This document shows, one piece after another, positions 16,344 through 32,831 of a stretch of DNA of 51,236 nt. The first letter of the stretch is position 1, and each line of letters begins with the position of its first letter. Both the position numbers and the translations under genes were made by a program. The notes under the pieces were generated by a model. The model saw only the letters and a program-made list of their open reading frames with translations. It did no database searches and was not told where the DNA came from. Where the stretch lies: assembly GCA_003599275.1 (NCBI GenBank), contig QZJG01000038.1, forward strand, positions 1 through 51,236, read 5' to 3'. Source of the stretch: Nitrospiraceae bacterium (GTDB taxonomy: Bacteria > Nitrospirota > Thermodesulfovibrionia > UBA6902).

Positions 16344-17783
16344 ATGAACATTCTTCTCATTAATCCTGATTTAAGCGTTTCTGAAAGATATGGCATGCTC
16401 GCCAAAGTGGGACCGACAACGGAACCCATGGGGTTGACATATATAGCAGCCGTTTTACTTGAAAGAGGACATAAAGTAAGGATTATTGATGCTGCTCCTA
16501 TTCACTTTAAGCCTTCGGATTTGGCAAGAGAAATAGAAAAAGAGAAATTCGATCTTGTCGGGATTACTTTTATGACGCCGATGTATCTCTGCGCAATGGA
16601 TGTTGCAAAGTCTATAAGAAAGGCCAACAGGGAAATAACCATTGTAATCGGCGGCCCGCATGTAACGATCATGCCGGAGGAGACATTAAAAAACAACAGA
16701 GAGATTGATTTCGCCGTCCTGGGCGAAGGGGAATATACGATGCTCGAGCTTGTCGATGCGCTTGAGAAAGGGGCGAATGACTTCACTGGAATCAAAGGCA
16801 TCGCTTTTCTTGATAAGGAAAATAAATTTATTATAACTCCTCCGAGGGAGCCTGAAAAAGACATTGACAAATTCCCTCTTCCTGCAAGACACCTGCTGCC
16901 GATGAAATTATACAGGCCGACTCCCACGTATTATCAGAAACTGCCTGCTCATATTATTTTAACCACAAGAGGCTGTCCGTTCAGGTGCAGTTATTGTTCA
17001 AAGATATTCGGGAACCTGGTGAGATTCCATTCCGTTGAAAGGATCATAAAAGAGATTAATATACTGATAGAAGAGCATGGAGCAAAAGAAATAATTTTCC
17101 GCGATGATACCTTTACCATAAACAAGAAACACACTACACAGCTTTGCAACGAAATGATCAAACAGGGGATACATAAAAAGATCAGATGGATGTGCATGAC
17201 CAGGGTAAACCTGATAGACGAGGAGCTGTTAAAAATAATGAAAAAAGCAGGCTGCTGGAGCATGCATTTTGGGGTGGAATCCGGCTCACAGAGACTTCTT
17301 GATTTAGTCCGGAAAGATATTACAATCGAGCAGATAAAAAAGGCGTTCTACCTGACGAAAAAAGTCGGCATAAAAACAAAAGCGTTCTTCATGATTGGAC
17401 TCCCGACGGAAACCCCGGAAGAGAGTTTACTAACAATTGGACTTGCCAAAGAGCTGGACCCGGATGGGGCACAATTCACCATTACTGTCCCTTTCCCGGG
17501 CACTAAATTGTTTGACCTGGCAAAGACATCTGGACATATGAAATCCTTCAGATGGGAAGACTATCAATCATGGGCAGGATGGACCAATAAAGACCTTGTG
17601 TATGTTACAGAGGGGAGAACACAGGAAGAATTGAAACAGTTTCAAAAACGTGCATTAAGAGAGTTTTATTTGAGACCCGGAATGGTTTTCAGAAATATCC
17701 TGGCTGTCAGATCATTAGATATTTTCAGGGCATATTTTCACGGGGGGCTTGCACTGCTCCGGTCGGCGCTGAATAAGAATTGA
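16344..17783 (+). CDS. B12-binding-domain radical SAM protein
   Basis: 479 residues. N-terminal cobalamin-binding-like Rossmann domain (about 2-140, 'MNILLINPDL', 'GLTYIAAVLLERGH', 'VIGGPHVTIMPEETL') and a radical SAM barrel with C211-x3-C215-x2-C218 ('CPFRCSYC'), 'FRDDTFTIN' and 'FGVESGSQRLLDLVRK'. The B12 DxHxxG motif is absent, as in many of this class. Relatives do methyl transfers, ring formation or lipid and hopanoid modification; no precise reaction can be assigned. It heads a row of plus-strand genes and overlaps the next start (TTGA). Confidence 0.88.
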   Translation: MNILLINPDLSVSERYGMLAKVGPTTEPMGLTYIAAVLLERGHKVRIIDAAPIHFKPSDLAREIEKEKFDLVGITFMTPMYLCAMDVAKSIRKANREITIVIGGPHVTIMPEETLKNNREIDFAVLGEGEYTMLELVDALEKGANDFTGIKGIAFLDKENKFIITPPREPEKDIDKFPLPARHLLPMKLYRPTPTYYQKLPAHIILTTRGCPFRCSYCSKIFGNLVRFHSVERIIKEINILIEEHGAKEIIFRDDTFTINKKHTTQLCNEMIKQGIHKKIRWMCMTRVNLIDEELLKIMKKAGCWSMHFGVESGSQRLLDLVRKDITIEQIKKAFYLTKKVGIKTKAFFMIGLPTETPEESLLTIGLAKELDPDGAQFTITVPFPGTKLFDLAKTSGHMKSFRWEDYQSWAGWTNKDLVYVTEGRTQEELKQFQKRALREFYLRPGMVFRNILAVRSLDIFRAYFHGGLALLRSALNKN

Positions 17784-18667
17784 ATAATTCAAAAAATATG
17801 AGTCCAGAAAACACAAGTATTTTTAGTGTAATCATACCGGCATACAATGAAGAAAAAGGGATTGTCGAGGTGCTTGACAATTTGAAGTTTCTGGATGCGA
17901 ATTACGAGATTATTGTAGTTGATGACGGGTCCGTGGACAAGACGTCTGAAGCGGTCAGGAAATATGCAAATGTAAGACTGATAACCCATAGCAGAAACTC
18001 AGGGTACGGGGCTTCATTGAAAACAGGAATTAAACATTCGTCCGGCGATATAATTATTATTACAGATGCAGACAGCACGTATCCTGTCGAAAGAATCCCC
18101 GAATTTGTCAGTATTCTTGCCGATAATGATTTTGATATGGTTGTAGGCGCTCGCACAGGAGAAAATGTCAATATCCCGCCGATAAGAAAACCGGCTAAAT
18201 GGATGATTTCCAGGCTTGCCAATTACCTTGCAGGCATAAACATCCCCGATTTGAATTCAGGTTTCCGGATAATAAAAAAAGAAGCGGTTAAAAATTTTAT
18301 TTCAATCCTGCCGAATGGCTATTCATTTACTACAACAATTACTTTGGCGATGACAACTAACGCATATAACGTCAAATACGTCCCGATTAATTATCTTAAA
18401 AGGACCGGAAAATCAAAAATCAGACCGATAAAAGACACATTGAATTTTATTCAACTGATTGTAAGAACGACGTTGTACTTCGATCCGCTGAAAATTTTTA
18501 TTCCGGTAAGTCTCGCGATGTTCGGAGCGAGTTTCCTTGTCTTCATTTACAGTTATTTTTTTATTCCAACCTTAATGGATACCACCGTTGCAATTTTTTT
18601 TATAAGCGGTATTCAAATTCTGGCAATCGGCATGGTTGCAGACCTGATTAACAGGAAGATGAAATAG
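17780..18667 (+). CDS. Family 2 glycosyltransferase, polyprenyl-phosphate sugar synthase-like
   Basis: 295 residues. GT-A fold: 'FSVIIPAYNEEKGIVEVL', 'EIIVVDDGSVDKT', and the metal-binding DxD in 'IIITDADSTYPV'; then 'DLNSGFRIIKKEAV'. Two hydrophobic segments follow (about 235-290). This layout matches dolichyl/undecaprenyl-phosphate mannose- or glucose-synthase-like enzymes. It would make the lipid-linked sugar donor used by GT-C enzymes encoded nearby. Start is TTG at 17780 overlapping the previous stop, or ATG at 17798; no clear ribosome binding site decides. Confidence 0.9.
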   Translation: MNNSKNMSPENTSIFSVIIPAYNEEKGIVEVLDNLKFLDANYEIIVVDDGSVDKTSEAVRKYANVRLITHSRNSGYGASLKTGIKHSSGDIIIITDADSTYPVERIPEFVSILADNDFDMVVGARTGENVNIPPIRKPAKWMISRLANYLAGINIPDLNSGFRIIKKEAVKNFISILPNGYSFTTTITLAMTTNAYNVKYVPINYLKRTGKSKIRPIKDTLNFIQLIVRTTLYFDPLKIFIPVSLAMFGASFLVFIYSYFFIPTLMDTTVAIFFISGIQILAIGMVADLINRKMK

Positions 18668-18681
18668 CCGTCATTTGACCA

Positions 18682-19467
18682 ATGAAGGAAGACAATTCAT
18701 ATCAGCAAGACCAGAAAGAACTCCATAAAACACTGGCTTTTTATTACGGCGAGAGATATCGTTACAGATTTTCCAGGATTTTCCATGACTTTTGGAACAG
18801 CGAAATATTGTCTTTAAGCCCTCCTTCTGAAGACGGACTGATAGTTGATTTTGGTTGTGGAACAGGGATTTTATTCCCGAGTCTGGCAAAAAGATATTCT
18901 TCGATTGTAGGGTTGGATCTTTCATACGATATGATTAAAAATGCGCCAAGGGGCATTAACGAAGTTAAAGGTTGTATTGTTGCTGATGGAGGAAGGCTGC
19001 CGTTTCACGATAACTCCGTCAATCTCGTGATCTGCAGGGGGAGCATGCACCATCTTCCAGATTTGGACAAGACGCTGATTGAAATAAAAAGGATACTTAA
19101 TAATAATGGACTCCTTATATTTTCAGAACCGAGCAATGACAATCTCCTGATCAGATTTGGCAGGTTTTTAATGTATAAACTCTCTTCAAGATTTGATGAA
19201 CGAGATACCGCTTTTATTACATCAGAGCTTGTACTGAAGCTTACAAAAGCAGGCCTTTCAGTTGAAGCGATTAAACGGTTCGGTTTCTTTTCGTATTTGT
19301 TCGGTGTGGCTCCGGACCACTTTCCGTTGATGATCTATATACCTTTTAATGTACAGATTATCAAATTATTTATCTTTATTGATAAACTCCTTGCAAGAGT
19401 GCCTTTAATCAAAGACCAGAGTTTTCATGTAATCTTCAAGGCAAGAAAATTCGGAGAAGTCAAATAG
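18682..19467 (+). CDS. Class I SAM-dependent methyltransferase
   Basis: 261 residues, methyltransferase_11 type. Motif I 'LIVDFGCGTGILFPSLAK' (54-70), acidic end of beta 2 'IVGLDLSYDMIKNA', 'GRLPFHDNSVNLVICRGSMHHLPD' and 'RILNNNGLLIFSEP'. Sits between a GT2 and a GT-C-like gene, so the likely substrate is a glycan, a lipid-linked sugar or a lipid. Cytoplasmic; the C-terminal part is hydrophobic and may touch the membrane. Confidence 0.9.
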   Translation: MKEDNSYQQDQKELHKTLAFYYGERYRYRFSRIFHDFWNSEILSLSPPSEDGLIVDFGCGTGILFPSLAKRYSSIVGLDLSYDMIKNAPRGINEVKGCIVADGGRLPFHDNSVNLVICRGSMHHLPDLDKTLIEIKRILNNNGLLIFSEPSNDNLLIRFGRFLMYKLSSRFDERDTAFITSELVLKLTKAGLSVEAIKRFGFFSYLFGVAPDHFPLMIYIPFNVQIIKLFIFIDKLLARVPLIKDQSFHVIFKARKFGEVK

Positions 19468-19496
19468 ATTGAAATATTCATTTGGAGGTCTGCTTT

Positions 19497-20777
19497 GTGA
19501 TTATGCTGAATAAGGTAAATTACAATAAAATTGCTAAAGTCGTTATCATTCTCATCATTGTGCTTCTTGGCGCTAAAGAAATTTACCAGGCCCAGAAGCA
19601 TTCCGATAAACCCTCCTATGTAGCCGGGGACGGCTCCGAAGTCAATGTGATCAGGGGAGGAGCATGTTATGCCAGAGACGGTTTTTTTTCCAATGCGGGC
19701 TTGCCGGACATCTGGTGCGGCGGTCGCTTCTTTCCCGAACAGGGCGGGCAGCTTTGCGGGGTAAAGTTTACAACTAATATTTATAAGACATATCCTCCGG
19801 GGTCGCATATGCTCGGAGGCGTTTATGCCAAGATATGCGGAGAGTATAATTTGGGCTGTTATCGCATGTTCCCGGTCGGGTTGGGTGTTTTTTCACTTGT
19901 GGTATTCGCGCTCTTGCTCCTTCGCAGCCTTACTCCAGTAAAAGCGGCCTTAATAATGCTGGCTATAGCGGTAATACCCATGACGAGTAATAAGATGCAT
20001 GGCCTTCAATTCCAGTCTTATACATTACCACTGTTCCTTATGTATCTGGCAAGCTTGATTATTTTTTTCAAACACAAGAGAAGATTCAATATACGTTATT
20101 TTATTTTTTTCTTCCTCTTCGGGGCCTTTCAGGGATTTCTTTCGTTTGACGAGGTCTTTCTGACGACTCTTTCGGGCATTCCAGTTGCCTTGCTGTATAC
20201 GCCGTTGAACAATAAAGAAGATATAAAGCGTTTGGCTCTTGTTGTCACAACCGTTTCAGCGGGATTGTTTCTATCCTACGCTCTGCATTTTATTCAGGTA
20301 ATTATTTATGATGGAAGCGCAGGGCAATCATATGATTTTCTTAAGATGATGTTCAAAGAGCGATATAATGATACGGGTGGCGGTGATACACTTGAAATAA
20401 ACAGTATGAAATTGGCATTCGAGATGTTCTCCCAAGTCGGCCGAAGCAAAGAACATTTTATAATAAATCTGCCTATTTTTCTTGGAGCAGTTCTTTTACT
20501 TTTGCTTATAAAGAAGGGCGTATTGACTTTGACCCTGCATAAGCCGATGCAACTCTGCTTGCAGTGGGCATCTTCAAGACGTAATTTTATCGTTATATTG
20601 TCAGCTCTTCTTATTTCTTTTTTGTGGATAATCTTAATGAAGCAGCATGTATTGTTTCATCAAAGGTATTTTGCAAGGCATTTCTTTTTGTTTTATTTTA
20701 TGTCTATTTTAACAATAATCGAAAACACCAGCCTTCTTGAGCTAAAAGCGCCGTCAAATGAGGAAAACCAGGAATAA
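19497..20777 (+). CDS. Polytopic membrane protein, GT-C glycosyltransferase-like
   Basis: About 426 residues with some nine to ten hydrophobic segments. The GTG at 19497 is chosen because GGAGG (19484-19488) lies 8 bases before it; an ATG at 19503 is also in frame, while the TTG at 19482 would swallow the ribosome binding site. The first loop after the N-terminal helix is long and Cys-containing ('GGACYARDGFF', 'KTYPPGSHMLGGVYAKICGEYN') as in GT39/ArnT-like enzymes, whose catalytic acid lies in that loop. No family can be named with certainty. Confidence 0.75.
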   Translation: MIMLNKVNYNKIAKVVIILIIVLLGAKEIYQAQKHSDKPSYVAGDGSEVNVIRGGACYARDGFFSNAGLPDIWCGGRFFPEQGGQLCGVKFTTNIYKTYPPGSHMLGGVYAKICGEYNLGCYRMFPVGLGVFSLVVFALLLLRSLTPVKAALIMLAIAVIPMTSNKMHGLQFQSYTLPLFLMYLASLIIFFKHKRRFNIRYFIFFFLFGAFQGFLSFDEVFLTTLSGIPVALLYTPLNNKEDIKRLALVVTTVSAGLFLSYALHFIQVIIYDGSAGQSYDFLKMMFKERYNDTGGGDTLEINSMKLAFEMFSQVGRSKEHFIINLPIFLGAVLLLLLIKKGVLTLTLHKPMQLCLQWASSRRNFIVILSALLISFLWIILMKQHVLFHQRYFARHFFLFYFMSILTIIENTSLLELKAPSNEENQE

Positions 20778-20797
20778 TTAGTCCGAGTAATATAAAA

Positions 20798-21850
20798 GTG
20801 ATGTTGCATCAAATGCTCCCGTCAGAGACTAATAAACGTATCTATTTTCTTGATGGCTTCCGGGCACTGGCAATTTTAATGGTTGTCGCAATTCATGCCG
20901 TACCATACAGCCATCCTTTGGACCCCGGCATCTCCGAGATCATTCAGTTTGTTATCCGCACAATTGCTGTCCCCGCGTTTTTTTTGAGTGACGGTTTTTT
21001 GTTTATTTTAAAAAAACCCTATAGCAATAATCTGCAATATATGAAATATGTCATTAAGAGCGCTCAGCGACTGCTTATTCCCTGGTTTGTTTTTACCATA
21101 ATATATTTAGTTGCAAGATCCATCTCGGAAGAATTAAATATAGTACAAAATAAAATAATAATGGGGAATTCCTTGCCATCCATTATTCAGGCAGCATATG
21201 CATCCACCATTGCCCCCCAGATGTATTTTCTGCTGTCCCTGTTTATTATCAGGACGCTGTCTTTTGGAATGAAGTACATGGAAAAACTGCATGTACTTCA
21301 TGTCGTTATCATTTTTATTTCATATGTGGTCCTGTATCATTTTTGCATTATTCCCTATTTGACGCCGCTATTGTCTGATGGAAACGGTTTTGATCCTTTT
21401 TTAAATGCCTTATGGGGGATGCAATTTTATCTGGCCGGAACGATCTTTGCCAATTACTATAAAGAGTTCTTCCGACATTCTTTGGTAATTATGATCGTAT
21501 CAACAGTTGTATTTATTGTTTTCAAATTTTATTGTGATGCGGGTACGTTAAATGAGACTGTCATTGCTTTTGCATATTTAACAGCTATATTTACTTTATT
21601 CTTAAAGAAGATGGACAAAAATAATATATTAAGCACGATTGGGAAAGATACTATGGGAATTTATCTGGTACATGCGCCAGTCATGGTAAATATTATCTCC
21701 TTGTTGATGCTTACATTGGTTGCAAATGCACTCCTGTCATATATATTAGTTACGTTGCTGACGTTTTTGTTTTCATTGTTAATAGTAAGGGTTATTTATA
21801 CTATTCCGTATGGTGTTTTACTTTTTGGAACGGCCCCACCAAGGGAATAG
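20798..21850 (+). CDS. Acyltransferase-3 family membrane protein
   Basis: 350 residues, about ten membrane segments. 'RIYFLDGFRALAILMVVAIHA' is the family's N-terminal motif with the catalytic-type His, and 'GKDTMGIYLVHAPV' is the characteristic C-terminal motif. These proteins move acyl groups (usually acetyl) across the inner membrane onto sugars, working with a periplasmic SGNH hydrolase. Three SGNH genes are found nearby, though not directly adjacent. Start codon GTG at 20798; later ATGs at 20801 and 20813 are possible. Confidence 0.88.
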   Translation: MMLHQMLPSETNKRIYFLDGFRALAILMVVAIHAVPYSHPLDPGISEIIQFVIRTIAVPAFFLSDGFLFILKKPYSNNLQYMKYVIKSAQRLLIPWFVFTIIYLVARSISEELNIVQNKIIMGNSLPSIIQAAYASTIAPQMYFLLSLFIIRTLSFGMKYMEKLHVLHVVIIFISYVVLYHFCIIPYLTPLLSDGNGFDPFLNALWGMQFYLAGTIFANYYKEFFRHSLVIMIVSTVVFIVFKFYCDAGTLNETVIAFAYLTAIFTLFLKKMDKNNILSTIGKDTMGIYLVHAPVMVNIISLLMLTLVANALLSYILVTLLTFLFSLLIVRVIYTIPYGVLLFGTAPPRE

Positions 21851-21875
21851 TCTAATAAACTGCTTTTGTATTAGT

Positions 21876-21911
21876 CGTCATTGCACGCCTCATGATTATA
21901 TGCAAATGACG
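21876..21911. terminator. Imperfect inverted repeat between convergent genes
   Basis: CGTCATTGCA (21876-21885) and TGCAAATGACG (21901-21911) could pair in the 103-bp gap between the acyltransferase and the HGSNAT-like gene. It may end transcription from one side, but a strong T-run is missing. Confidence 0.35.
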
Positions 21912-21953
21912 AGTATTCCTTCTCAGGGAGCGACAATATTCCATTTTTCAAAT

Positions 21954-23087
21954 TCAGATTTTGATGAAAATCTTTTTACGATACAAAATCGCGGCAAGTC
22001 CGAGCCAGATCAACAGGACTGTCAGGGAATATATAAGTGACGCATTGACCGGGCTTGACCATGATGCAAAGATATTCCTGAGAAGGTAGGCGTTCATTTT
22101 TATTCTGGAACCATCGGCAAGTGTGGTTCCCCATTCCCACAGCAATTTCTCAAGCAGTGTGGACAGTACATATACGCCGAGGGCGTTGGCTCCAAACATA
22201 ACAAATACCTTACTCCAGCGGCGCACATTTATTACATCTACAATCCAGTAAATGAAACCGAGCAAGACAGCGGCTGCCCCGGCAGTAAATAGCACATATG
22301 AGCTGCTCCATATGTATTTATTAATGGGGAACCACACATCTGCTGTCAGTCCTGATATGACCCCTGCGCTTCCATAAATTAAAAGAAGGAAGGTCTTCCC
22401 GGCTGGACTCTTACTCAACCGTAGCACGTGACCTGTCAATGCCCCCAGTAATGTAGTTGAAAGAGCGGGGACCGTACTTAGCAGTCCTTCCGGGTCCCAT
22501 GTGGGCTCAAACATGTGTCCGTGCATAAAGAAGTTGTCAATATATGCAGCCAGGTTCTTCCCAGGTTCTAAAATAACAGTATCGTATCCCGGCACCGGGA
22601 CCAGTTTCATAATCAACCAGTAAAATATCAGCAAACCTGCAGAGATAAGTGCCTGTGCTCTAATCCCTGACTTGAGCATTATAAGCGAAGCGAAAAAGTA
22701 GCATATGCCTATCCGCTGCAAAACGCCCGGGATCCTCAGGGAAGACAAGGAGAAATATGGGAAAGCATTTATGAACAGACCGAGGCCGACGATAATCAGT
22801 GTGCGTTTGATTATATGATAAAGCAGTTCTCTTTTGCTCTGGCCTTTATCCAATCGATTGGCAACTGAAAAAGGGATTACAGCTCCGACGATAAACAAAA
22901 AAAACGGAAATATCAGATCGGCCATGGTCCAGTCATTCCATCGGGCGTGATCAAGGTGATAGTAGATATCATCTCCGACCTGATTGTTCACAAGAATCAT
23001 CGCGGCGATTACTATTCCGCGGAATACATCCAGAGAACATAATCGCGCGGAATCCGATATTACGATATTACTGTTGAGGCGGTGCAA
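21954..23087 (-). CDS. HGSNAT-like / DUF5009 membrane acetyltransferase
   Basis: 377 residues, about ten membrane segments. Motifs 'SLDVFRGIVIAAMILVNN', 'WTMADLIFPFFLFIVGAVIPFSV' and 'RIPGVLQRIGICYF' match the heparan-alpha-glucosaminide N-acetyltransferase / NagX family, which takes acetyl from cytoplasmic acetyl-CoA and acetylates an amino sugar on the other side of the membrane. Its start is 26 bp after the GT-C-like gene at 23114 on the same strand, so the two form an operon. Likely modifies the glycan made by this region. Confidence 0.88.
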   Translation of the reverse strand: MHRLNSNIVISDSARLCSLDVFRGIVIAAMILVNNQVGDDIYYHLDHARWNDWTMADLIFPFFLFIVGAVIPFSVANRLDKGQSKRELLYHIIKRTLIIVGLGLFINAFPYFSLSSLRIPGVLQRIGICYFFASLIMLKSGIRAQALISAGLLIFYWLIMKLVPVPGYDTVILEPGKNLAAYIDNFFMHGHMFEPTWDPEGLLSTVPALSTTLLGALTGHVLRLSKSPAGKTFLLLIYGSAGVISGLTADVWFPINKYIWSSSYVLFTAGAAAVLLGFIYWIVDVINVRRWSKVFVMFGANALGVYVLSTLLEKLLWEWGTTLADGSRIKMNAYLLRNIFASWSSPVNASLIYSLTVLLIWLGLAAILYRKKIFIKI

Positions 23088-23113
23088 TTTTCGGCATCCT
23101 GAAATTCATAATA

Positions 23114-24691
23114 TCACCAGAAGTAGCCTGCGATTGTCTGCATCACGGCAGTTTGTATTCCGGTTGTAACCAAAAGAATGCGAAGCCATCTTTCCTGCAA
23201 TTTTGTCAATATCAGAACAAAGAATAAATACATGAACAGGCATATTCGCGCAATCTCTCCGGTATAAAGACCTCCCATAAGCAGGAAGGGAACGAGAGGC
23301 GCAATGCCATAGACGAATACCATATTAACATCATTACGCCAATCGAATATGCGGTTATTCAGTATGGAAGGATGAAAGAACAATGCAAGGATAGCAAGAG
23401 AAAGGAATATCGCAAACATGGTCCCATTTTCCAGTCGCGTCATTATGTACATAACGGGATTATCGAGAATTGAGGTGGTATCTTCAAAACTCGATGCAGT
23501 AAGAAAGGCCTTTATGTGGCTGTAGCCATAATAATAATCTAAGAACAAATGCACAAATAGCATCAACAGGAGACAGATCACAAGCGCCTTGAATAAACCG
23601 AACTTTCTGTGGACGATAATCATATGCATGGCGACTATGCCCGATGTACCAAGCAGAAACAAGCCGAGATATGTATGTAAATTTACAAGCAGCAATCCTG
23701 CGAAAAACATCATAAACCCGGGCAGGCTCAATCCACGTTTCAGAATATGTATAAAGCCTGTCAAAAATAAGGCGCCAAACGATATTATTGCCCCATCAAG
23801 AGATATGGCGCTGAAAATGTTATATGCCGGAATTACAGAAAACAATATTGCAACCAGAAAACGCTGCCTTTCCGGAACATCCAGAAGTTTCATGATTTGA
23901 TAAACAAAAGCTATCGACGCACTCGATAATCCGATAAAAAGCCCCGACATTACAGGCAGGTTGTGGTTCGATAGTTTAATGAAAAAATAATGCAGCAGGA
24001 CCGCAAGCGGAGGGTGTGTCCTGGCGTGGATTTTTAAATGCAGCAGATTGGCATTAAAATTACCAAGCCACTCCCGCCAGTCGGTTATCCCGATCGCTTC
24101 ATGATAATATTGCTCATAATAATAGATTCCCTCATGAAAATAATCAGATGCTGTTATAGGTTTGTAAAAAGCTTCTTCCGGACCTCCCTGCGCAAGGTTG
24201 CCAAAGATTATTAAAAAGGTCCCGAACACCCATGCAGAGGTTAAATTAAAAAATTTATACCTTAACGAAACAAACAGGGTCAACAAAAATAACAGGGAAT
24301 ATGGCAAACCTGAGATGCGTATTCTTGGCCCAAAGACCTCGGACAAAGGGAAAAAATCAGGGGTACCGGGCCCCATGCCGGCCAGCTTCAGTAACAAATT
24401 AATAAATACCAGCACGGTCCAGCAAAAAATTATGAGTAGTATGGTGCCCACAGGATGACTGATAAGTTTCCGCATATGGTCCTGATACCGTGATGATAAA
24501 AACCCTGCTGTCAGCATAAGACCGCCGATGAGCATCGAAAGAAATCTGATCCACTGGAGGCCTTTATTAACTTCGGGTGAGACGACATGATCGGATGAAA
24601 TATGTATTGCAATAAAGTCTGGAGAAATTATAATCCCGGTCAGAATGGCGATAATCCCTGCTGAGATGAGGGTAAGATGTAAGGGTCTCAA
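23114..24691 (-). CDS. GT-C-like polytopic membrane protein (GT39-related)
   Basis: 525 residues, about twelve hydrophobic segments. The N-terminal half has a loop with 'FNANLLHLKIHARTHPPLAVLLHYFF', resembling the His-Pro-Pro-type motif of protein O-mannosyltransferase-like GT-C proteins. Long hydrophobic repeats follow. Expected to transfer a sugar from a polyprenyl-phosphate donor on the outer face of the inner membrane. It precedes the HGSNAT-like gene in a two-gene operon. Exact activity unknown. Confidence 0.78.
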   Translation of the reverse strand: MRPLHLTLISAGIIAILTGIIISPDFIAIHISSDHVVSPEVNKGLQWIRFLSMLIGGLMLTAGFLSSRYQDHMRKLISHPVGTILLIIFCWTVLVFINLLLKLAGMGPGTPDFFPLSEVFGPRIRISGLPYSLLFLLTLFVSLRYKFFNLTSAWVFGTFLIIFGNLAQGGPEEAFYKPITASDYFHEGIYYYEQYYHEAIGITDWREWLGNFNANLLHLKIHARTHPPLAVLLHYFFIKLSNHNLPVMSGLFIGLSSASIAFVYQIMKLLDVPERQRFLVAILFSVIPAYNIFSAISLDGAIISFGALFLTGFIHILKRGLSLPGFMMFFAGLLLVNLHTYLGLFLLGTSGIVAMHMIIVHRKFGLFKALVICLLLMLFVHLFLDYYYGYSHIKAFLTASSFEDTTSILDNPVMYIMTRLENGTMFAIFLSLAILALFFHPSILNNRIFDWRNDVNMVFVYGIAPLVPFLLMGGLYTGEIARICLFMYLFFVLILTKLQERWLRILLVTTGIQTAVMQTIAGYFW

Positions 24692-24782
24692 ATGCGAATC
24701 CTTTCCATGGTAACGGAATAATTCATATTATAAGATATAGGCAGTCATTTAAGCATTAGCATGCCGTTTTAAATACGTAAAA

Positions 24783-24812
24783 TAGACAAGCTCCCCTTAT
24801 AAGGCTTATAAT
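24783..24812 (+). promoter_or_regulatory. Candidate sigma-70 promoter for the SGNH gene
   Basis: TAGACA (24783-24788), 18 bp, TATAAT (24807-24812), about 41 bp upstream of the ATG at 24854. A hairpin (ACCGTT-4 nt-AACGGT, 24838-24853) then abuts the start codon. Confidence 0.5.
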
Positions 24813-24853
24813 TAAGAACATAATTCCCTTGAAACGGACCGTTCTCAAACGGT

Positions 24854-26134
24854 ATGACTGTAATTATGCGTAACACACTGAAACTATCTGTATTAATATT
24901 AATGCAAGTTATCGTTTTACTTATTGTTGCCGATATAGGTTTGCATTATACATCTTATAATCACTTCGGAAGATCTTTTGATAATGACAGGAGATTTTTT
25001 TATACGTATGACTCTGCATTGGGTTATGATATGGCAATTAGCGCACCACTTCTGGAAAGAGAAACTCCGTCAGGAGTAAAGTACAAAGCCTGGACGAATA
25101 ATATCGGGTGTTATGATCATGAGTATGCCGCAAATCAAGACTATATATTGCTTGTGGGCGATAGTTTTACGGAATCCACTGCTCCATTTGATAAGAAATG
25201 GGGGACGTTGCTGGAGAAACTATTAAAACATCGTGTTCTTAAATGCGGTATTGTGGGTTACGGGACAAAAGCAGAGCTTATGAAGGCAAATAAAACAATT
25301 GACAGGACAGGGAAATCACCGAAGCTTATAATTGTCGGATACTATATGAACGATCTTGAAAACGATTATATTTTTCCCAGTGCTACGGTAATTGACGGTT
25401 ATTTTATGAGCACAAAAATGCTAAACAGGACTACGGGGGCTATTGAGGGGTATCCGGTACAATCCATAGACTATATAAAATGGCAAAGAGATTACTGCTC
25501 GGACGAGCCTGTTACAGGTCATTACAATAAAATAATCAAGAGAACCGGGTGTTATCTGTCGAGGAACAGCATTATATTGAACATGATGAAAAAGGCGAAA
25601 GAACGTATTTCAGAGATGGTCCAAAATATGCCTGGAGACAATGACCGTCATACTATTTTACCCGTACAAATGGACATTTCCTTCTTTCCATCTGATCACG
25701 GATGGATCCTGGAAAACAAATTATGGAACAACCATTTTGCAAATATAAAAGAATTTCAAAAGCTCGCGATGCATCATAACGCAAAACTATTATTCGTTTT
25801 GATACCAACAAGAGAACAGGTATATCCTTATCTCCTGAGTAAACAATATAGAAACAGTATTAATCTTTTTCAGCCTAATGAAATATTGGCTGAATTTTTC
25901 AGGAGAGAGTCTATCGGTTATCTGGATCTACTTCCATTGTTCTCCGAATTTGCCGATAAGACGGAAAGAAACCATCTTGACAATGAAAAAGATCTCTACT
26001 GGCGCAATGATAGTCACTGGTCCAATAAGGGAGATCGACTCGCGAGCGTTTTTGTTGCAAAAAAACTGATCGAGTCTGGAATAATAACCTCAGGCGACAG
26101 CAAACGTATCCTGGCTGAATTAAATAATTTTTAA
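24854..26134 (+). CDS. AlgX/AlgJ-like SGNH hydrolase, membrane anchored
   Basis: 426 residues. One N-terminal membrane helix (about 10-27), then SGNH domain: 'YILLVGDSFTEST' gives block I (G102-D-S104), the Gly and Asn blocks lie in 'CGIVGYGTKAEL' and 'IIVGYYMNDLEND', and the Asp-His block is 'RNDSHWSNKGDRLA' near residue 385, similar to the D-T-H-W motif of AlgX/AlgJ sugar O-acetyltransferases. It faces the periplasm. A role in O-acylation of an exported glycan fits the neighbouring acyltransferase-3 genes. ATG at 24854 or 24866; no ribosome binding site is clear. Confidence 0.85.
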   Translation: MTVIMRNTLKLSVLILMQVIVLLIVADIGLHYTSYNHFGRSFDNDRRFFYTYDSALGYDMAISAPLLERETPSGVKYKAWTNNIGCYDHEYAANQDYILLVGDSFTESTAPFDKKWGTLLEKLLKHRVLKCGIVGYGTKAELMKANKTIDRTGKSPKLIIVGYYMNDLENDYIFPSATVIDGYFMSTKMLNRTTGAIEGYPVQSIDYIKWQRDYCSDEPVTGHYNKIIKRTGCYLSRNSIILNMMKKAKERISEMVQNMPGDNDRHTILPVQMDISFFPSDHGWILENKLWNNHFANIKEFQKLAMHHNAKLLFVLIPTREQVYPYLLSKQYRNSINLFQPNEILAEFFRRESIGYLDLLPLFSEFADKTERNHLDNEKDLYWRNDSHWSNKGDRLASVFVAKKLIESGIITSGDSKRILAELNNF

Positions 26135-26160
26135 CCGATATCAGAGAATAAGATCCCCAT

Positions 26161-27504
26161 TTGAAAGATATGACAGTTACAAAGATCCTCCATGTGGATA
26201 CGCTAAATCAAAATAAACGATTATTTAATATCCTGTTATTAGTCATTATCGGGGCCTACGTATACCTGCAGGTGTACCATTTTCTGGCCATTCCGGACCC
26301 GCTGCTGTTTCCCGATTCTGCCAGATATCTGAAGACCACCACGGTTTTCAGTGACGCCCTACTGCCTGAACATGGCGTTACTCCGCCTGTAGTGCCGCTT
26401 ATTTATAAACTTCTGGGCGAAGATATTAATGTCATAGCATTTTCCCAGCTCGTCCTTTCCATCCTTTCATGGGTTTTTTTGTCTTATGCGGTTTCAAGGA
26501 CCATGAAGAGCGTTTGGATATCGCTTATTGCTTTTATCGCAATCCTGACCTTCAGTCTCAGCAGCGCAATTTCTTTATGGAATGGCGTGATATTGAGTGA
26601 ATCACTCAGTCTGTCAATTTTTGCGTGCTTTATTGGAAGCTGGATTTTAATGTTCGAGAAACAGTCCTTAAAGAGAAGTTTATTATTGATAACAGCATCT
26701 GTCCTCTTCGCTCTTTCGCGTACTGCTCATGTTTACCTGCTGCTTATGCTGGGGTGTATTCTCGGCGTAGCCGGACTCTTCAATCTGCGTGCTGTCAAGC
26801 GCAAATACTGTCTTGCCTTCTCGGTTATTTATATCGTCATGTCTCTGCTGTCAAATGTTTCTGCCAATGTCGGAACACAATGGACAGTCTACTTTGTTGA
26901 TGTATTGTCGACAAGAATATTACCGGATCCTGAGAAGAGGGAATATTTTGAAAAACATGGAATGCCTGTTGATGAGAATTTAATGAAATTGGAGGGTAAA
27001 TTCGCTCAGGAAGGTAACTGGGCTTTCCATAATGATCCCAACCTCGAAGAATTCAGGAAGTGGCTCTATTCCAGTGGAAAATCAACATATGTCCGGTTTT
27101 TGCTGACGCATCCGCACTTTTTAATAACCGGGCCTTTTGAGGATTTCCTGCAAATGATGTACGGATACAGATTGATATACTATGCCCCGAAAGGGTATTC
27201 AAGTCCCCTGGGAGCATTGTTTGATTACATGGATTCTCCGCTGATATTCCCAATCTATATTTTTGCTGCAGGCATTCTTGCAGGCATGAACCTTATTTTT
27301 GCAGGTTCGGGGAAATCGACCGTATCGTTGGTGCCGATTATAATGATGCTTCTCGTTTATCCTCTTATGGCTTTAGTCTGGCATGCCGATTCCCATGAAC
27401 TGGAGCGACATGTACTTACTTTCTCAGTGCAGGCCCGTTTGAGTTATATTCTGCTTGGATTGTTTACCATTAATGCACTATTCTCAACCTCATCCCAAAA
27501 TTAG
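26161..27504 (+). CDS. GT-C-like polytopic membrane protein
   Basis: 447 residues, about ten to eleven hydrophobic segments. After the first helix comes 'FPDSARYLKTTTVFSDALLPEHGVTPPVVPLIYKL', with a conserved Asp in the first periplasmic loop and a Thr-Pro-Pro stretch, as in ArnT/PMT-like GT-C proteins. Start TTG at 26161 or ATG at 26170. It follows the SGNH gene by 26 bp on the same strand, so an operon of two is likely. No family can be named with certainty. Confidence 0.75.
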   Translation: MKDMTVTKILHVDTLNQNKRLFNILLLVIIGAYVYLQVYHFLAIPDPLLFPDSARYLKTTTVFSDALLPEHGVTPPVVPLIYKLLGEDINVIAFSQLVLSILSWVFLSYAVSRTMKSVWISLIAFIAILTFSLSSAISLWNGVILSESLSLSIFACFIGSWILMFEKQSLKRSLLLITASVLFALSRTAHVYLLLMLGCILGVAGLFNLRAVKRKYCLAFSVIYIVMSLLSNVSANVGTQWTVYFVDVLSTRILPDPEKREYFEKHGMPVDENLMKLEGKFAQEGNWAFHNDPNLEEFRKWLYSSGKSTYVRFLLTHPHFLITGPFEDFLQMMYGYRLIYYAPKGYSSPLGALFDYMDSPLIFPIYIFAAGILAGMNLIFAGSGKSTVSLVPIIMMLLVYPLMALVWHADSHELERHVLTFSVQARLSYILLGLFTINALFSTSSQN

Positions 27505-27527
27505 ACAATATCTTCATTTAAGTATCC

Positions 27528-28487
27528 TCACGTTCTTTTCTCAATTAAATTTAATAATAATTGAGTTGTTTTTTTAAGAAGAAAGGCTGATAACAAAGAT
27601 AACACTATATAAAGTAACGTTTGTTGCAATAAGCTCATTCCACCTAAAAAACCGAATATACAACTATGAGTCAAATATAATTCATAAGATATAAAGCCTA
27701 ATAAGCCCGGGACCATTAATGCTTTCGATGAGACTACTTTTACAAAAAAAAGCATAATTGCAATGCTGGCGAAACAAGTCAGTCCTATATCTATCATTCC
27801 CACATATTTCAAGGGCAGATTGTCTCCGATAAGTGGAACTTGTTGAAATCCAAAAATTAATATAGATATCGAGAGAAAAAATAATGTGAGATGGAATGAA
27901 TTGCTTTTACCGAGATATGCTGCTATTTTTTCTTTATGCGATGATATCATCAATCCTGCAAATACGGAAAAAGACTGTGTCCTCCAGATTTCATCCCGCG
28001 TAAAAATCATAAGGGTAAATGAGACAAGCAAAAACATTAGCAACCTATGGTTCGGAGTTTTTAATAACGAACACGTAATGAAGAAGTATGCATAGGTGAA
28101 AACAATGAACTGTAGAAACCATCCGGGGAAATGGGGCGGGTATTCAATTAGAAATACATAAGAAAAGATATCGCTGATATTTATTTTATTGAAAAGCACC
28201 AGGAGAAGAATGATTAACCAATAAGGTAAAAAAATCTTCTTTAATCTTTTGGAGAGGAAATTTTTAAGCCCGTCTCTGGTAAACCGTTCATTTAATCCAT
28301 AGCCCGAAAGCACCAGGAATAAACAAACGGCAATCATATTAAAGTGGAAACATAAATATCTTAAATAAGTTCTGTCAGGCGTGATCCATTGGTAATAATG
28401 ACAAATAAAAATTATGAAAATAGCAATTCCTCTTAAGCTGTTTGATAGTTCAAAAGTTATTAAGGCTTTATTCTTATTATTGTTCAT
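27528..28487 (-). CDS. Acyltransferase-3 family membrane protein
   Basis: 319 residues from ATG 28487 (a GTG at 28514 would add nine residues; no ribosome binding site helps). N-terminal motif 'SNSLRGIAIFIIFICHYYQWITPDR' with the His that is essential in this family, about ten membrane segments, and the motif 'YELYLTHSCIFGF'. Presumed to acylate a sugar at the inner membrane. Last gene of a five-gene minus-strand operon that also encodes two SGNH hydrolases and an alkaline-phosphatase-superfamily enzyme. AT-rich. Confidence 0.87.
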   Translation of the reverse strand: MNNNKNKALITFELSNSLRGIAIFIIFICHYYQWITPDRTYLRYLCFHFNMIAVCLFLVLSGYGLNERFTRDGLKNFLSKRLKKIFLPYWLIILLLVLFNKINISDIFSYVFLIEYPPHFPGWFLQFIVFTYAYFFITCSLLKTPNHRLLMFLLVSFTLMIFTRDEIWRTQSFSVFAGLMISSHKEKIAAYLGKSNSFHLTLFFLSISILIFGFQQVPLIGDNLPLKYVGMIDIGLTCFASIAIMLFFVKVVSSKALMVPGLLGFISYELYLTHSCIFGFLGGMSLLQQTLLYIVLSLLSAFLLKKTTQLLLNLIEKRT

Positions 28488-28527
28488 GAGTTGACTGTTT
28501 AGAGCGATTTCCACGGTTTGAACCGGT

Positions 28528-30540
28528 TTATTTCATTGATAATTCTGAAGATTGTATGATGCTTTTATTAGCAAGAGCAAGTTTGTCGTCAAGTAAGCTT
28601 TTAAGCCTGCGTGCGATTTCCGGTTGCTCATCAAAAATATTTTGTGTTTCATTAGGGTCGGTCTTGAGATTGAAAAGCAGAGATTTATTGTCTTCCAAGT
28701 AATGAATGAGTTTATAGTTACCTTCCCATACCGCGAATGTGCCTTTGGTAATTTGTTGATATTCAATAGCAGGGTTACTGATAAGCTGCATGGAAAACAC
28801 TGGCAATGACTGTCTGGTCTCCCCGTTAGTTAATGGAAATAAGGATGACCCTTCCATCCATGACGGCACAGGGATATTCGCAAGTTCAAGGATGGTTGGT
28901 GCAATATCTGTCTGTTCAACTGGTACATTTATTACAGCGCCATTTTTTTCCCCTGGCGTTTTAATTACGAGAGGAATGTGCACTAATTCCTCATAAAGAT
29001 GAGGACCACTATGGCCAAGGTAACCATGTGAAAAAATTTCTCCATGATCAGATGTGAAAACAATAATTGTGTTTGAAATATCAATCAGTTCAGAGAGACT
29101 GGATATAAATGACTTAAAGAGGTCATCAGAATATAGAATGAATTCATCGTAGCGTTCCCTGAGAATATCTATATTTTTTTGCCTTTCAGGTATGTATTCT
29201 GGTAGTTCAAATTCAACTGATTGTTTTCGTTTAGTATTAAACTCATTATGATTCCCCAATATTCCTGTCTGAAGATTTGAGGGCAAGTAAGGATGATGAG
29301 GTGGAAGGACATGTAAATATGCAAAAAAAGGAAGACGAGAATGGTTTTTGGGGTTAATTTCAGATATTTTTTTGAGAAAACGATTATAAACAATATCTGG
29401 TGGAAATATTGTGGTATATGTATCAGGGCGATATTTTCGCAACACATTAGATATATACTCATTATTTATAATCCAGTCTCGCGCCAAGTCGTTTTTTACA
29501 TGACTTATGGTCCTGTCTAACCACCAGTTTTTGGGCAAACTTAGTGTATTCGACGGATCTTGCACTAAAAAAGCATCACTCATTCCTAAACCGGCAGGAT
29601 GCGCAATACTGTTTTGTACAAGCCCATAAATTATGTAACCATTATCCTTAAGTATACTCGGTAAATTTCTTCCGTATTTTTTGTTTCTTAAATAGAAAGG
29701 ACGATAATGCCAGGCACGATGAGTCCATGGCCTTTGTCCGGTCAACAAACTCATGGTAGAAGGATATGTCCAGTTGCACGAGGCATAAGCCTTCTCAAAA
29801 ACTATTGCATCTTTTGACCACTCGGACAAGAAAGGAGTTGTCGGGCGGTTGTATCCATACATGCTCATATCTTGCGCAGTTAATGTATCCCATACTACCA
29901 TGATGATATCAGGTCTTTTTTTGAATTGGTCTTCGGTTTTGATCTTCGAAAGCTGAACTGATTCGCTTTTGATTTCTGAAGTGTTCTTCTGAAATGCCGT
30001 GAATAATACGGCGAAAATGAATAATAAAGCAAACAACGAGGCAACAGGTGTAATACGTTGAGCTATTCCAATAAGCACGCGTTCAACATATTCACTTATT
30101 TTCAATCTGTGCAGGATTTTTTCAATATGCTTATGAAAAAACCATATAACAAGCGCTGTAAAAACAATGATAATTGTGTAAGTTGTAAAATTATCTAAAC
30201 CGGTCAGACGCTGGAAAGAAAAGTGGAAGAATTTTGTTTTTATGTAATAAATAAATCCGCAGCCCAACAGTCCCGCTATCAGATGTTCAAAACGAATAAA
30301 TTTTAAAGGCTTCGGCATTATTATGGTAATCCCATATACTGCGAACCAAAAAACAGAAGCTAACAAGATTCCCATAATTGACCAAATGATAAATACTAAC
30401 GATAAATCGGGCAGGAAATCCGTAAATTTCATGTAAAAGGAATATCCATCCCATTTATAAAACGCATCCCTGATAAACATGAGAGAAAACACAACGAAAA
30501 ATATTCGAAGAATTACAAGATAAGATTTTTTAGCCGTCAT
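28528..30540 (-). CDS. Membrane-anchored alkaline-phosphatase-superfamily enzyme, sulfatase-like
   Basis: 670 residues: about five membrane helices (about 10-190) and an exported sulfatase domain (about 205-660). It has the metal Asp in 'DIIMVVWDTLTAQDM', the active-site region 'SCNWTYPSTMSLLTG', and the second metal site 'VFTSDHGEIFSHGYLGHSGPH'. The position used by formylglycine in true sulfatases (Cys/Ser-x-Pro-Ser) is Thr258 here (T-Y-P-S). Thr at that position is used by LtaS and phosphoethanolamine transferases, so this is more likely a phospho-group transferase than a sulfatase. Between an SGNH gene and an acyltransferase in one operon, it may decorate the surface glycan. Confidence 0.85.
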   Translation of the reverse strand: MTAKKSYLVILRIFFVVFSLMFIRDAFYKWDGYSFYMKFTDFLPDLSLVFIIWSIMGILLASVFWFAVYGITIIMPKPLKFIRFEHLIAGLLGCGFIYYIKTKFFHFSFQRLTGLDNFTTYTIIIVFTALVIWFFHKHIEKILHRLKISEYVERVLIGIAQRITPVASLFALLFIFAVLFTAFQKNTSEIKSESVQLSKIKTEDQFKKRPDIIMVVWDTLTAQDMSMYGYNRPTTPFLSEWSKDAIVFEKAYASCNWTYPSTMSLLTGQRPWTHRAWHYRPFYLRNKKYGRNLPSILKDNGYIIYGLVQNSIAHPAGLGMSDAFLVQDPSNTLSLPKNWWLDRTISHVKNDLARDWIINNEYISNVLRKYRPDTYTTIFPPDIVYNRFLKKISEINPKNHSRLPFFAYLHVLPPHHPYLPSNLQTGILGNHNEFNTKRKQSVEFELPEYIPERQKNIDILRERYDEFILYSDDLFKSFISSLSELIDISNTIIVFTSDHGEIFSHGYLGHSGPHLYEELVHIPLVIKTPGEKNGAVINVPVEQTDIAPTILELANIPVPSWMEGSSLFPLTNGETRQSLPVFSMQLISNPAIEYQQITKGTFAVWEGNYKLIHYLEDNKSLLFNLKTDPNETQNIFDEQPEIARRLKSLLDDKLALANKSIIQSSELSMK

Positions 30541-30634
30541 CGTTTTTTTTGGTTATAAATTTTAATAATACAATTTGAGTATTTGAATGCAGGTTTAATA
30601 ATAAAATAAATTTAATTTAATCTCTATGTGGTGA

Positions 30635-31705
30635 TTACAGTAAATCAATATATCCACTATCAACAAGATAACGCTTGATTGCCTCGGCAGCGGTGAAGTG
30701 GCCTTCCGGGCCCCAGTGTCCTTTTGTCTTGAAAATTATTTTCTGCGATATTTTTTCTGCAAAATATTGACGAGTTGACATACATTTTGCTTTTTTACTT
30801 GCCTCACATATGGAAAATAAATATTTTTCTCCATCTGTAAAATCAGAGATAGTATTGATTTCGTTTCCAGACGGTAAATATGCAAATATTGGAATTGCAT
30901 TAATACTTAGAGTCGATTCTATTATTTCATGTAAAATAGTCCTCGTAATAGCTTCTTCATCTTTTTTGAGGAGTCCGTGTGATCTCTTGAAGTTATGATG
31001 CATTATTGCAAGAAGATGTAAAAACTTGGAATTTGCCCAATCCCATTTGAGAATGTTTTCAGGAGATGGAATTGGGACACCTGTAAGCTTGAGTTCACCA
31101 TCGTCTAATACAAATTTTGGTTTTGCATAATCTCTGAAAGCAAGCAAATTTCTTGACATGTCCATAGGAAGAAAACCTAATATTACAATATCCGGCTTAT
31201 ATTTCAGGCCTTCTTCTCTGAGGAGAATTAGCATTTGATCATGTCCGTAGCCGTGTACCCCCATGTTTATAACTTCAACTTGAGGTAACATCTGCTGAAG
31301 GTAATAAGAATACGTCTCATTATCGCTTACTTCATCGCCGAAGGTGAAAGAGTCTCCGATAGTAATTATGCGAAGTTTATTGGGATTTTTGATATAAGAA
31401 TAATCCTTGTCTCCTCTAAATCCATTTGAATTGGTATTTAGAGTCTTATTCCCGAATACCGTCATATTTCTTATATTAGACTTTGATCTCCATCCCCTCG
31501 AAGGGTCATAAGTGTCAAAGTTATAAAATATTTTTTCCCCGGAGGTTTGATGTCTGCTAACCCAGATGCTACGCCATCCATATTCTTCATCTTCCCATAA
31601 ACGTTCAGCAGGCATTAATAGAAAGGCAAGTCTTGCGGAAACCTCAATGGTAATGATTAAAAATGCAATATATATTGAAATGTAACCAATCTTTTTTTTT
31701 ATCAT
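30635..31705 (-). CDS. SGNH/GDSL hydrolase, membrane anchored
   Basis: 356 residues with one N-terminal helix (about 6-24). Block I 'RIITIGDSFTFGDEVSD', Gly block 'INMGVHGYGHDQM', Asn block is replaced by 'FLPMDMSRN', and the C-terminal His lies in 'KGHWGPEGHFTAAEAI'. Periplasmic face. Probably removes or transfers acyl groups on a glycan. It starts 20 bp after a 43-codon membrane peptide gene and ends 94 bp before the sulfatase-like gene. Confidence 0.85.
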   Translation of the reverse strand: MIKKKIGYISIYIAFLIITIEVSARLAFLLMPAERLWEDEEYGWRSIWVSRHQTSGEKIFYNFDTYDPSRGWRSKSNIRNMTVFGNKTLNTNSNGFRGDKDYSYIKNPNKLRIITIGDSFTFGDEVSDNETYSYYLQQMLPQVEVINMGVHGYGHDQMLILLREEGLKYKPDIVILGFLPMDMSRNLLAFRDYAKPKFVLDDGELKLTGVPIPSPENILKWDWANSKFLHLLAIMHHNFKRSHGLLKKDEEAITRTILHEIIESTLSINAIPIFAYLPSGNEINTISDFTDGEKYLFSICEASKKAKCMSTRQYFAEKISQKIIFKTKGHWGPEGHFTAAEAIKRYLVDSGYIDLL

Positions 31706-31725
31706 TTAATAATGGGGTGCCGGTA

Positions 31726-31857
31726 TTAAAATATCTGATAATTAAAGCCCCCCATTTGGGGCCCCCCGGAAGTCATTACCAGAGCAATTGTCAACAACGT
31801 GAAAATTAAAAACAAAATAATAAAATAATACTTATACTTTGACAAGAAATTTTTCAT
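31726..31857 (-). CDS. 43-residue membrane peptide, DUF5989-like
   Basis: A short gene not obvious from ORF length alone. MKNFLSKYKYYF is followed by a single hydrophobic helix (about 12-28) and a short tail ending 'GGFNYQIF'. The ATG overlaps the stop of the upstream SGNH gene (ATGA, 31857-31854) and the stop is 20 bp from the next SGNH start, so it is embedded in the operon. Size, single helix and final pattern (hydrophobic helix, T-x-G, terminal F-x-Y-x-x-F) resemble DUF5989 peptides, which are found next to SGNH and sugar-modifying genes; this is a resemblance, not proven. Likely a subunit of the SGNH/acyltransferase machine. Confidence 0.65.
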   Translation of the reverse strand: MKNFLSKYKYYFIILFLIFTLLTIALVMTSGGPQMGGFNYQIF

Positions 31858-32831
31858 CGAGATACATCCCCTTTCAATAAAACAAAGTCTAAGGTTTTTT
31901 CTGCTATGATTTTATGGGCCAATTTATTTGGATGAGCATCATCATAACTGACCCACAAGTCTATCGGGTTTTTATAAGAAGAGAATGTACCAGCCAGATT
32001 CAAATTGCTGATTCCGTTATCTGATAGAAATCCTGAAACCTTATCATATATATCGTTAAATATGGTATTGTCGACATCGTGAAGCTCGGGGAGCAAAACC
32101 ACCTGCAGTTCAATTTTTTCTTTCCGGCAGATTTCTTTCAAGTCAAGAAACGCTTTTTTAGTTCTAATCCATCCTTCATGGTCATCCGCATAAAGTTCGG
32201 AATAGAAGGATTTGAAGCTTTTGGACTCAACCTGCCTGTTCAGAAGGGCGTGAATTCTTGACCAGTAAAACGATATGAAGCGCGAATAGCCGAGAAACCA
32301 TAACTTCGATTTTTTCGGGGTAACCTCAGCATCGTTAATAAAATAAAAGGCTATTACTTTATCAGGTTTGTATTTCAGACCCTTTTCAAGAAACAGGTTT
32401 ACCTCCTGCTCCGTATTGTAATTGCCTGCTCCGAAATTAATTAATTCGACAGGATATCGCTTGTTGATCTCAGTTTCAAGGATATTTTCAAAAGAATCTT
32501 CATGTTCTACGCCCCACCCGAAAGTCAGTGAATCACCTAATACAGCGATTCTGTATGAGTCACCCTTTGCAATGGGATATTCTCTGTCGCGCAACCCATC
32601 TGAATTGATTTTTACCGTTGAATTCATCAAATGTTTCGTAACATTGGGCCTGTGAATATGGCCGATTAAAGGATTATCAGAGTCTTTCTTGACAGACATC
32701 GCATACTTCGTCATCTCAATGTCATACACTGTTTTATAATTCAGATAGACCCTTATGATTATCTCTCCGAAAATAAAAAATACAATCATGGAAAATATAA
32801 AAGCAAGGAATATTTTGCCTGTATTATTCAT
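31854..32831 (-). CDS. SGNH/GDSL hydrolase, membrane anchored
   Basis: 325 residues; N-terminal helix (about 8-26), block I 'RIAVLGDSLTFGWGVEHEDS', Gly block 'LINFGAGNYNTEQEVN', Asn block 'AFYFINDAEV' and the Asp-His pair in 'YDDAHPNKLAHKIIAEK'. All four SGNH blocks are intact, unlike the following SGNH gene, so this is the better candidate for an active esterase or acyltransferase. First gene of the minus-strand operon that ends with the acyltransferase-3 gene. Confidence 0.87.
   Translation of the reverse strand: MNNTGKIFLAFIFSMIVFFIFGEIIIRVYLNYKTVYDIEMTKYAMSVKKDSDNPLIGHIHRPNVTKHLMNSTVKINSDGLRDREYPIAKGDSYRIAVLGDSLTFGWGVEHEDSFENILETEINKRYPVELINFGAGNYNTEQEVNLFLEKGLKYKPDKVIAFYFINDAEVTPKKSKLWFLGYSRFISFYWSRIHALLNRQVESKSFKSFYSELYADDHEGWIRTKKAFLDLKEICRKEKIELQVVLLPELHDVDNTIFNDIYDKVSGFLSDNGISNLNLAGTFSSYKNPIDLWVSYDDAHPNKLAHKIIAEKTLDFVLLKGDVSR

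Follow-up and report, generated by a model that had tools for sequence, protein, structure and literature searches.

The 51,236-nucleotide contig QZJG01000038.1 of a Nitrospiraceae bacterium (assembly GCA_003599275.1), hereafter the window, carries at positions 16344 to 32831 an AT-rich region whose G+C content is 39.0%, compared to 47.2% in the left flank and 47.6% in the right flank. Its 14 genes are arranged in four transcription units with intra-unit gaps of -4 to 94 bp, and the region ends coincide exactly with the ends of open reading frames (ORFs). Unit 1 (+ strand) codes for a radical SAM protein, a GT2 glycosyltransferase, a methyltransferase, a membrane protein and the acyltransferase-3 (AT3) AT3a; unit 2 (- strand) for a membrane protein and an HGSNAT-type protein; unit 3 (+ strand) for an AlgX-like SGNH protein and a WsfD-like GT-C protein; unit 4 (- strand) for SGNH1, the small peptide pep43, SGNH2, a sulfatase-superfamily enzyme of threonine type (Thr-type enzyme) and AT3b. 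Genes were called as the longest ORF, with no gene finder, and chance is no concern for intact ORFs of such length. The assembly (G000; 3.05 Mb, 89% complete), whose contig C21 is the window, was one of the 61 genomes searched for homologues. A preliminary description of the 16.5 kb had listed these enzymes, and ORF ends, base composition and Pfam families bear the list out. It listed SGNH hydrolases and the peptide without explaining their association. The novelty lies in the 43-residue peptide: its reading as a DltX-like shuttle of DUF5989 type is the most valuable result of the analysis.

SGNH1 (325 amino acids; 31854..32831, - strand) is the first gene product of unit 4 and matches Lipase_GDSL_2 (E 4e-10). 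Its motifs GDSL99 and DDAH297-300 are intact and an N-terminal helix spans residues 4-29 (AlphaFold2 model, pLDDT 88), features of a predicted membrane-anchored SGNH transferase with an intact triad. The fold search returned SGNH esterases, with the SGNH esterase CgnD (PMC10070186) in first place, and cannot tell an esterase from a transferase; DltD and PatB were not among the matches listed, which carries no weight either way. The coding sequence of pep43 (31726..31857, - strand) overlaps SGNH1 by 4 bp and lies 20 bp from SGNH2. Pep43 is a single-transmembrane microprotein of sequence MKNFLSKYKYYFIILFLIFTLLTIALVMTSGGPQMGGFNYQIF. Its C terminus is predicted to face the outside because a Lys-rich N terminus is followed by one helix and a charge-free tail. 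The tail F-N-Y-Q-I-F, placed at the very C terminus, is an FxYxxF motif.

The 43-residue ORF had been taken for a gene, as its conservation confirms. In a genome from another genus (G018, 100% complete) an SGNH1 orthologue (63-64% identity) is followed at the same place by a 44-residue peptide that ends FVYQVF and is 53% identical to pep43. Window and G018 differ by 18/8/25 nucleotides at the three codon positions in the peptide gene and by 104/58/171 in the SGNH1 gene, a pattern typical of coding genes under selection.

In the Dlt pathway a membrane-bound O-acyltransferase (MBOAT, DltB) puts D-alanine on the tyrosine of the C-terminal FxYxxF of DltX, which then passes it to the serine of the SGNH protein DltD, while in PatA the same motif is fused to the MBOAT and its tyrosine is auto-acetylated (PMC12148441). 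Excerpts of this 2025 paper state that MBOAT/SGNH pathways besides Dlt are without a DltX-like microprotein, and a search for further acyl-shuttle microproteins of MBOAT/SGNH systems found none among the open-access matches listed. The window shares with Dlt a single-transmembrane microprotein with C-terminal FxYxxF, encoded together with a membrane-anchored SGNH protein; it differs in its surrounding genes and in having no MBOAT, and pep43 has no match to the DltX family: the Pfam scan, taken to E<=10, gave only Ferlin_C. Pfam presumably holds a DltX model. Pep43 is thus filed as DltX-like and not as DltX, since it does not match the curated family. With PatA/PatB and AlgIJFX the island has in common the acyl-tyrosine motif and the SGNH transferase logic, whereas its motif stands on a separate peptide and no MBOAT is encoded in it.

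Sixteen of 9859 small ORFs of 28-70 amino acids in 77 sequences end FxYxxF: 12 are of DUF5989 type (pep43 and its G018 relative included), one is a peptide of locus L057 and three are non-membrane-like and look like chance; among the 3519 membrane-like ones the 13 with this end are the same 12 and the L057 peptide. The motif closes 17 of the 18 MBOATs read (17 of 22 profile matches and one from locus L222), the sole exception being that of L057. This locus (G038:C1, 9202-13435) encodes on one strand a 399-residue motif-less MBOAT and, about 2 kb away, a 40-residue peptide ending FVYDKF. The peptide gene overlaps a 348-codon gene (9202-10248) whose product has no Pfam match, matches a home-made SGNH profile weakly and carries GQSD and SDHLN. 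The set lies in an island that also holds a Thr-type enzyme and is possibly a DltB-DltX-DltD-like trio outside Dlt.

Pep43 is related to DUF5989 (PF19451), with which it shares a similar length, a gapless tail with invariant F-Y-F, SGNH neighbours and, at locus L198, gene order. It differs in lacking the N-terminal MSK..EFW block and RKKWW, in place of which it carries KYKYY and SGGPQ. The hexapeptide and the SGNH context of DUF5989 are present, while its carbamoyltransferase context is absent from the island by Pfam. The G018 peptide scores 26.4 bits against PF19451 (E 2.3e-5), just below the cut-off of 27, and pep43 gave no reportable score in the Pfam scan. With a home-made hidden Markov model (HMM) pep43 scored 9.6 bits, a value reached by none of 3000 full shuffles and by 47 of 3000 segment shuffles. 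When ten peptides are aligned, F47, Y49 and F52 alone are invariant over the final ten columns.

When 84,980 species genomes were scanned, at least 80 DUF5989 loci turned up, 80 of which were read (L169-L248); judged by record title they come from Nitrospirota, Omnitrophota, KSB1, Cyanobacteria, Proteobacteria, Acidobacteria, Planctomycetes, Bacteroidetes and other phyla. All 80 peptides end FxYxxF, including the 28 with the N-terminal pattern; since this end is part of one of the two patterns used in the scan, the selection partly favours the motif. PF19451 HMM matches above the cut-off numbered 23, and 21 of the 22 C termini read end FxYxxF. The exception (L088, G044:C105) is a frame that continues beyond the usual end without the motif, a broken copy or an assembly error.

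On the same strand within 6 kb of the 80 listed loci there is a carbamoyltransferase in 55, SxtJ in 47, SGNH in 25, MBOAT in one and AT3 in none; these neighbour profiles are home-made, and those for SGNH and AT3 are narrow and give lower bounds. Two AT3 matches were found nearby, both on the opposite strand. By Pfam the first upstream neighbour is SxtJ in 40 of 70 loci, carbamoyltransferase in seven and GDSL_2 in three, while the first downstream neighbour is GDSL_2 or carbamoyltransferase in 9 of 54 each; no gene lay inside the distance limits downstream in 26 of the 80 loci and upstream in 10. Carbamoyl-phosphate synthase domains account for one of the 54 downstream and two of the 70 upstream neighbours. 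The distant locus L198 has the order of the window, SGNH-DUF5989-SGNH, its first SGNH protein (Pfam GDSL_2) matching SGNH1 at 8.8e-51; the home-made profiles for carbamoyltransferase, SxtJ, MBOAT and AT3 have no match there on the same strand within 6 kb. Locus L119 (G004:C21) reads carbamoyltransferase-SxtJ-SGNH-DUF5989-SGNH-DUF5989, the second SGNH being a weak match. Its two SGNH-DUF5989 pairs (13210-14809) stand in tandem with identical 52-residue peptides, perhaps a recent duplication. Sets of the type carbamoyltransferase-SxtJ-DUF5989-SGNH occur across many phyla.

Gene order, motif, conservation, intact SGNH1 motifs and the relation to DUF5989 are probably best explained by a glycan island in which pep43 acts as a DltX-like shuttle feeding SGNH1. 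Unit 1 would probably make a lipid-linked sugar that is used outside, and in units 2 and 3 a GT-C-like protein would have an acyl-transfer protein as its partner (the HGSNAT type and the AlgX-type SGNH, respectively). Unit 4 would decorate the glycan, with SGNH1 and pep43 as its core. Pep43 is envisaged as a one-helix microprotein whose Tyr40, in FNYQIF, would be loaded with an acyl-type group at the periplasmic face; the group would then move to Ser101 of SGNH1 and from there to a sugar hydroxyl, as D-alanine moves from DltX to DltD. The topology of pep43, the acyl-tyrosine chemistry and the acceptor are inferred parts of this model.

An ordinary glycan island would need no shuttle: AT3a, AT3b, the HGSNAT type and the SGNH proteins would O- or N-acetylate the glycan, pep43 would be a structural or assembly subunit, and its FxYxxF-like tail would stem from descent shared with a DUF5989 of other function. 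Standalone AT3 proteins can work without a known partner according to parts of PMC9833829, TmAT enzymes acylate sugars directly according to parts of PMC12423673, and DUF5989 has no function on record in the open-access literature searched. This explanation is unlikely, because F, Y and F survive while the remaining tail diverges, the SGNH-microprotein pairing is repeated, and the sole motif-less MBOAT read has a motif microprotein nearby.

The shuttle reading may extend to the whole family. It is conceivable, with odds rather against it, that DUF5989 is a second widespread acyl-shuttle family outside Dlt and that its usual cargo, in the carbamoyltransferase-SxtJ-DUF5989-SGNH sets, is carbamoyl, which would make these sets a Dlt-like machine for the carbamoylation of extracellular glycans; pep43 would then be a divergent branch in which a standalone AT3 may have taken over loading. 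By title and abstract start, no glycan system uniting SxtJ, carbamoyltransferase and SGNH was found among the open-access matches listed, and those for carbamoyl and exopolysaccharide held nothing to the point. The motif in pep43 hints that acyl hand-over across the membrane occurs more widely than had been assumed. Should pep43 and DUF5989 prove to be shuttles, a family without known function present in many phyla gains a concrete, cheaply testable role, the partner that some standalone acyltransferases lack may be found, and extracytoplasmic O-carbamoylation of glycans gets a mechanism.

Several enzymes might load pep43. A carbamoyltransferase/SxtJ pair acting in trans is tentatively ranked first, somewhat short of an even chance, since such a pair is common to both genomes with a pep43-type peptide and is linked to DUF5989 elsewhere. 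In both genomes it lies away from the pep43 locus. The window's own genome has two carbamoyltransferases, one of which precedes SxtJ and an SGNH gene; the stretch read there encodes no FxYxxF peptide. G018 has one carbamoyltransferase-SxtJ pair, adjoining Thr-type genes.

AT3b (328 amino acids; 27528..28514, - strand; Acyl_transf_3 1.2e-19) ranks below this pair and is a rather doubtful loader, considered because it is linked to pep43 in cis. The three proteins AT3, microprotein and SGNH would amount to a split OatA whose tyrosine has moved to a DltX-like peptide. AT3b, one of three AT3 genes of the genome, two of which are in the window, is the last gene of the same operon, 13 bp behind the Thr-type enzyme gene. 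Its product, with NSLRGIAIFIIFICH and SYELY motifs, keeps the TMH1-type and SxxxY motifs. A partner for standalone AT3s is postulated in parts of PMC9833829, and the single MBOAT detected in the genome carries a motif of its own. OafB and OatA likewise combine AT3 with SGNH, whereas here the AT3 proteins (328 and 350 amino acids) are unfused and the tyrosine would be on a third protein. The co-occurrence of AT3 and peptide, which the preliminary description had proposed as a check, fails in G018: no AT3 is found in the genes read of the 20-kb locus (L114), and the sole PF01757 match of that genome is a 655-residue AT3-SGNH fusion. The absence of same-strand AT3 genes within 6 kb of the listed DUF5989 loci, obtained with the narrow profile, also speaks against AT3b. 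The simple reading that an AT3 loads pep43 is weakened by G018 and is kept as a rival.

An MBOAT, an HGSNAT-type protein or another enzyme also ranks below the carbamoyltransferase/SxtJ pair, and is as doubtful a loader as AT3b. PF03062 (MBOAT) has no match in the window and a single one in the 89% complete assembly, on contig C66; its product ends FLYVNF, so that no MBOAT partner free of its own motif was found there. Since it carries that motif itself and adjoins a GDSL-type gene, this MBOAT was set aside as an improbable loader. In its locus (L281, G000:C66, 6420-10054) it stands between the GDSL-type gene and a 356-codon gene behind it (L281:8984-10054) whose product has no Pfam match, a separate MBOAT-SGNH set. 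G018 has one MBOAT, ending FIYRFF, and one distant HGSNAT-type protein.

The other two proteins of unit 4 are SGNH2 and the Thr-type enzyme. SGNH2 (356 amino acids; 30635..31705, - strand) keeps the Ser of GDSF117 and the His, the Asp of the catalytic DxxH being missing. Its Lipase_GDSL_2 match (E 2.3e-5) reaches 25.4 bits, below the curated cut-off of 32.9. With SGNH1 and the ALGX match of unit 3 this gives the three SGNH proteins announced earlier.

The Thr-type enzyme (670 amino acids; 28528..30540, - strand; Sulfatase 3.7e-41, SGSH_C 2.7e-21) has a sulfatase core, an N-terminal membrane region and, at the formylglycine site, Thr258-Tyr-Pro-Ser-Thr (TYPST). The threonine type had been pointed out before; sulfatases carry Cys or Ser there (CxPSR), and Thr is present in all four aligned homologues, so a formylglycine sulfatase is unlikely. 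D218, T258, P260, D498 and H499 are invariant in these four, and D218, D498 and H499 are taken for putative metal ligands. The enzyme shares core and N-terminal membrane part with EptA/MCR and S1 sulfatases and differs by its threonine and by scoring far below cut-off with EptA models (NCBIfam, 41.9 bits, cut-off 500). Its closest PDB matches are sulfatases and phosphonate hydrolases; an AlphaFold model from two-sequence input (mean pLDDT 40) was not used. The natural guess is an extracytoplasmic phospho-group transferase or phosphodiesterase. The family has matches in 33 of the 61 genomes, that of the window among them. Tandem runs reach five copies in L046 (G011:C7), four in L035 (G007:C97) and three in L032 (G019:C10), their copies being 37-50% identical to that of the window, a strong lineage expansion. 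A scan of viral contigs with the enzyme alignment found no relative.

Apart from the GT-C-like proteins, the families named for the remaining units are also confirmed by Pfam. Unit 1 starts with the B12-binding radical SAM protein (479 amino acids; 16344..17783; B12-binding, Radical_SAM), which has no close orthologue, since the best relative listed from the 61 genomes is 43% identical; for this reason it was rejected as a pathway marker. It is followed by the GT2 of polyprenyl-phosphate-sugar synthase type (295 amino acids, TTG start; 17780..18667; Glycos_transf_2 1.4e-36; best NCBIfam AglJ, below cut-off) and a class I methyltransferase (261 amino acids; 18682..19467; Methyltransf_11 8.7e-22). 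Then come a multi-pass membrane protein (431 amino acids; 19482..20777), a homologue of which adjoins a Thr-type enzyme in locus L047, and standalone AT3a (350 amino acids; 20798..21850; Acyl_transf_3 4.7e-27; DGFRALAILMVVAIH motif).

Unit 2 encodes the HGSNAT/DUF5009-type transmembrane acetyltransferase (377 amino acids; 21954..23087; DUF5009), placed in the HGSNAT branch of the TmAT superfamily by a match to solved human HGSNAT (E 2.6e-26), and another multi-pass membrane protein (525 amino acids; 23114..24691). Unit 3 encodes the AlgX/AlgJ-like SGNH protein (426 amino acids; 24854..26134; ALGX 1.5e-11; GDSF102, NDSHW385) and the WsfD-like GT-C protein (447 amino acids; 26161..27504). Three GT-C-like proteins had been proposed. 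The last one matches WsfD (NF051875), below cut-off with 35.5 of 80 bits, while the two multi-pass proteins of units 1 and 2 are GT-C-like by appearance only, as neither has a Pfam or NCBIfam family at E<=0.01. Absence of flippase, polymerase and ligase had also been noted: no such family matched, though one might go unrecognised in these two membrane proteins of unassigned family.

As a whole the region is a surface-glycan island specific to its lineage. To its right lie trpE-trpG and, on the chromosomal side of the border, a conserved 134-codon gene downstream of trpG (33013..33417, + strand). TrpG is present in all 13 genomes searched, and homologues of the 134-residue protein (57-63% identity) adjoin it in three (G004, G007, G008) of eight same-genus regions read; the island is beside trpG in none of these eight, of which 5 to 19 kb beyond that gene were read. 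The WsfD-like protein (48%) and the HGSNAT-type protein (55-57%) each have two close relatives in the 61 genomes, all on contigs with a Thr-type enzyme, and the rarer island genes turn up in other islands in different gene orders. Because single genes recur in islands that likewise encode the Thr-type enzyme, the island is modular, one draw from a pool of shared glycan genes, and its conserved sub-unit consists of SGNH1 and the small peptide (and an SGNH gene).

That the whole 16.5 kb forms one dedicated, conserved pathway, as first suggested, is very improbable. The region is compact and AT-rich with four tightly packed units; the 14-gene set is absent from all 40 relative loci compared, and with the trpG comparison and the single recurrence of genes in differing islands, one conserved 14-gene system was rejected. 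The preliminary interpretation as a surface-glycan assembly and acylation system is thus partly supported: the families fit, and the "one system" part fails as a conserved neighbourhood.

The window flanks hold three clusters of Mac/Lol-type export genes (2403-5554, 36046-39100 and 43607-45790), each with an ATPase of one family and an adaptor and/or FtsX-like permease.

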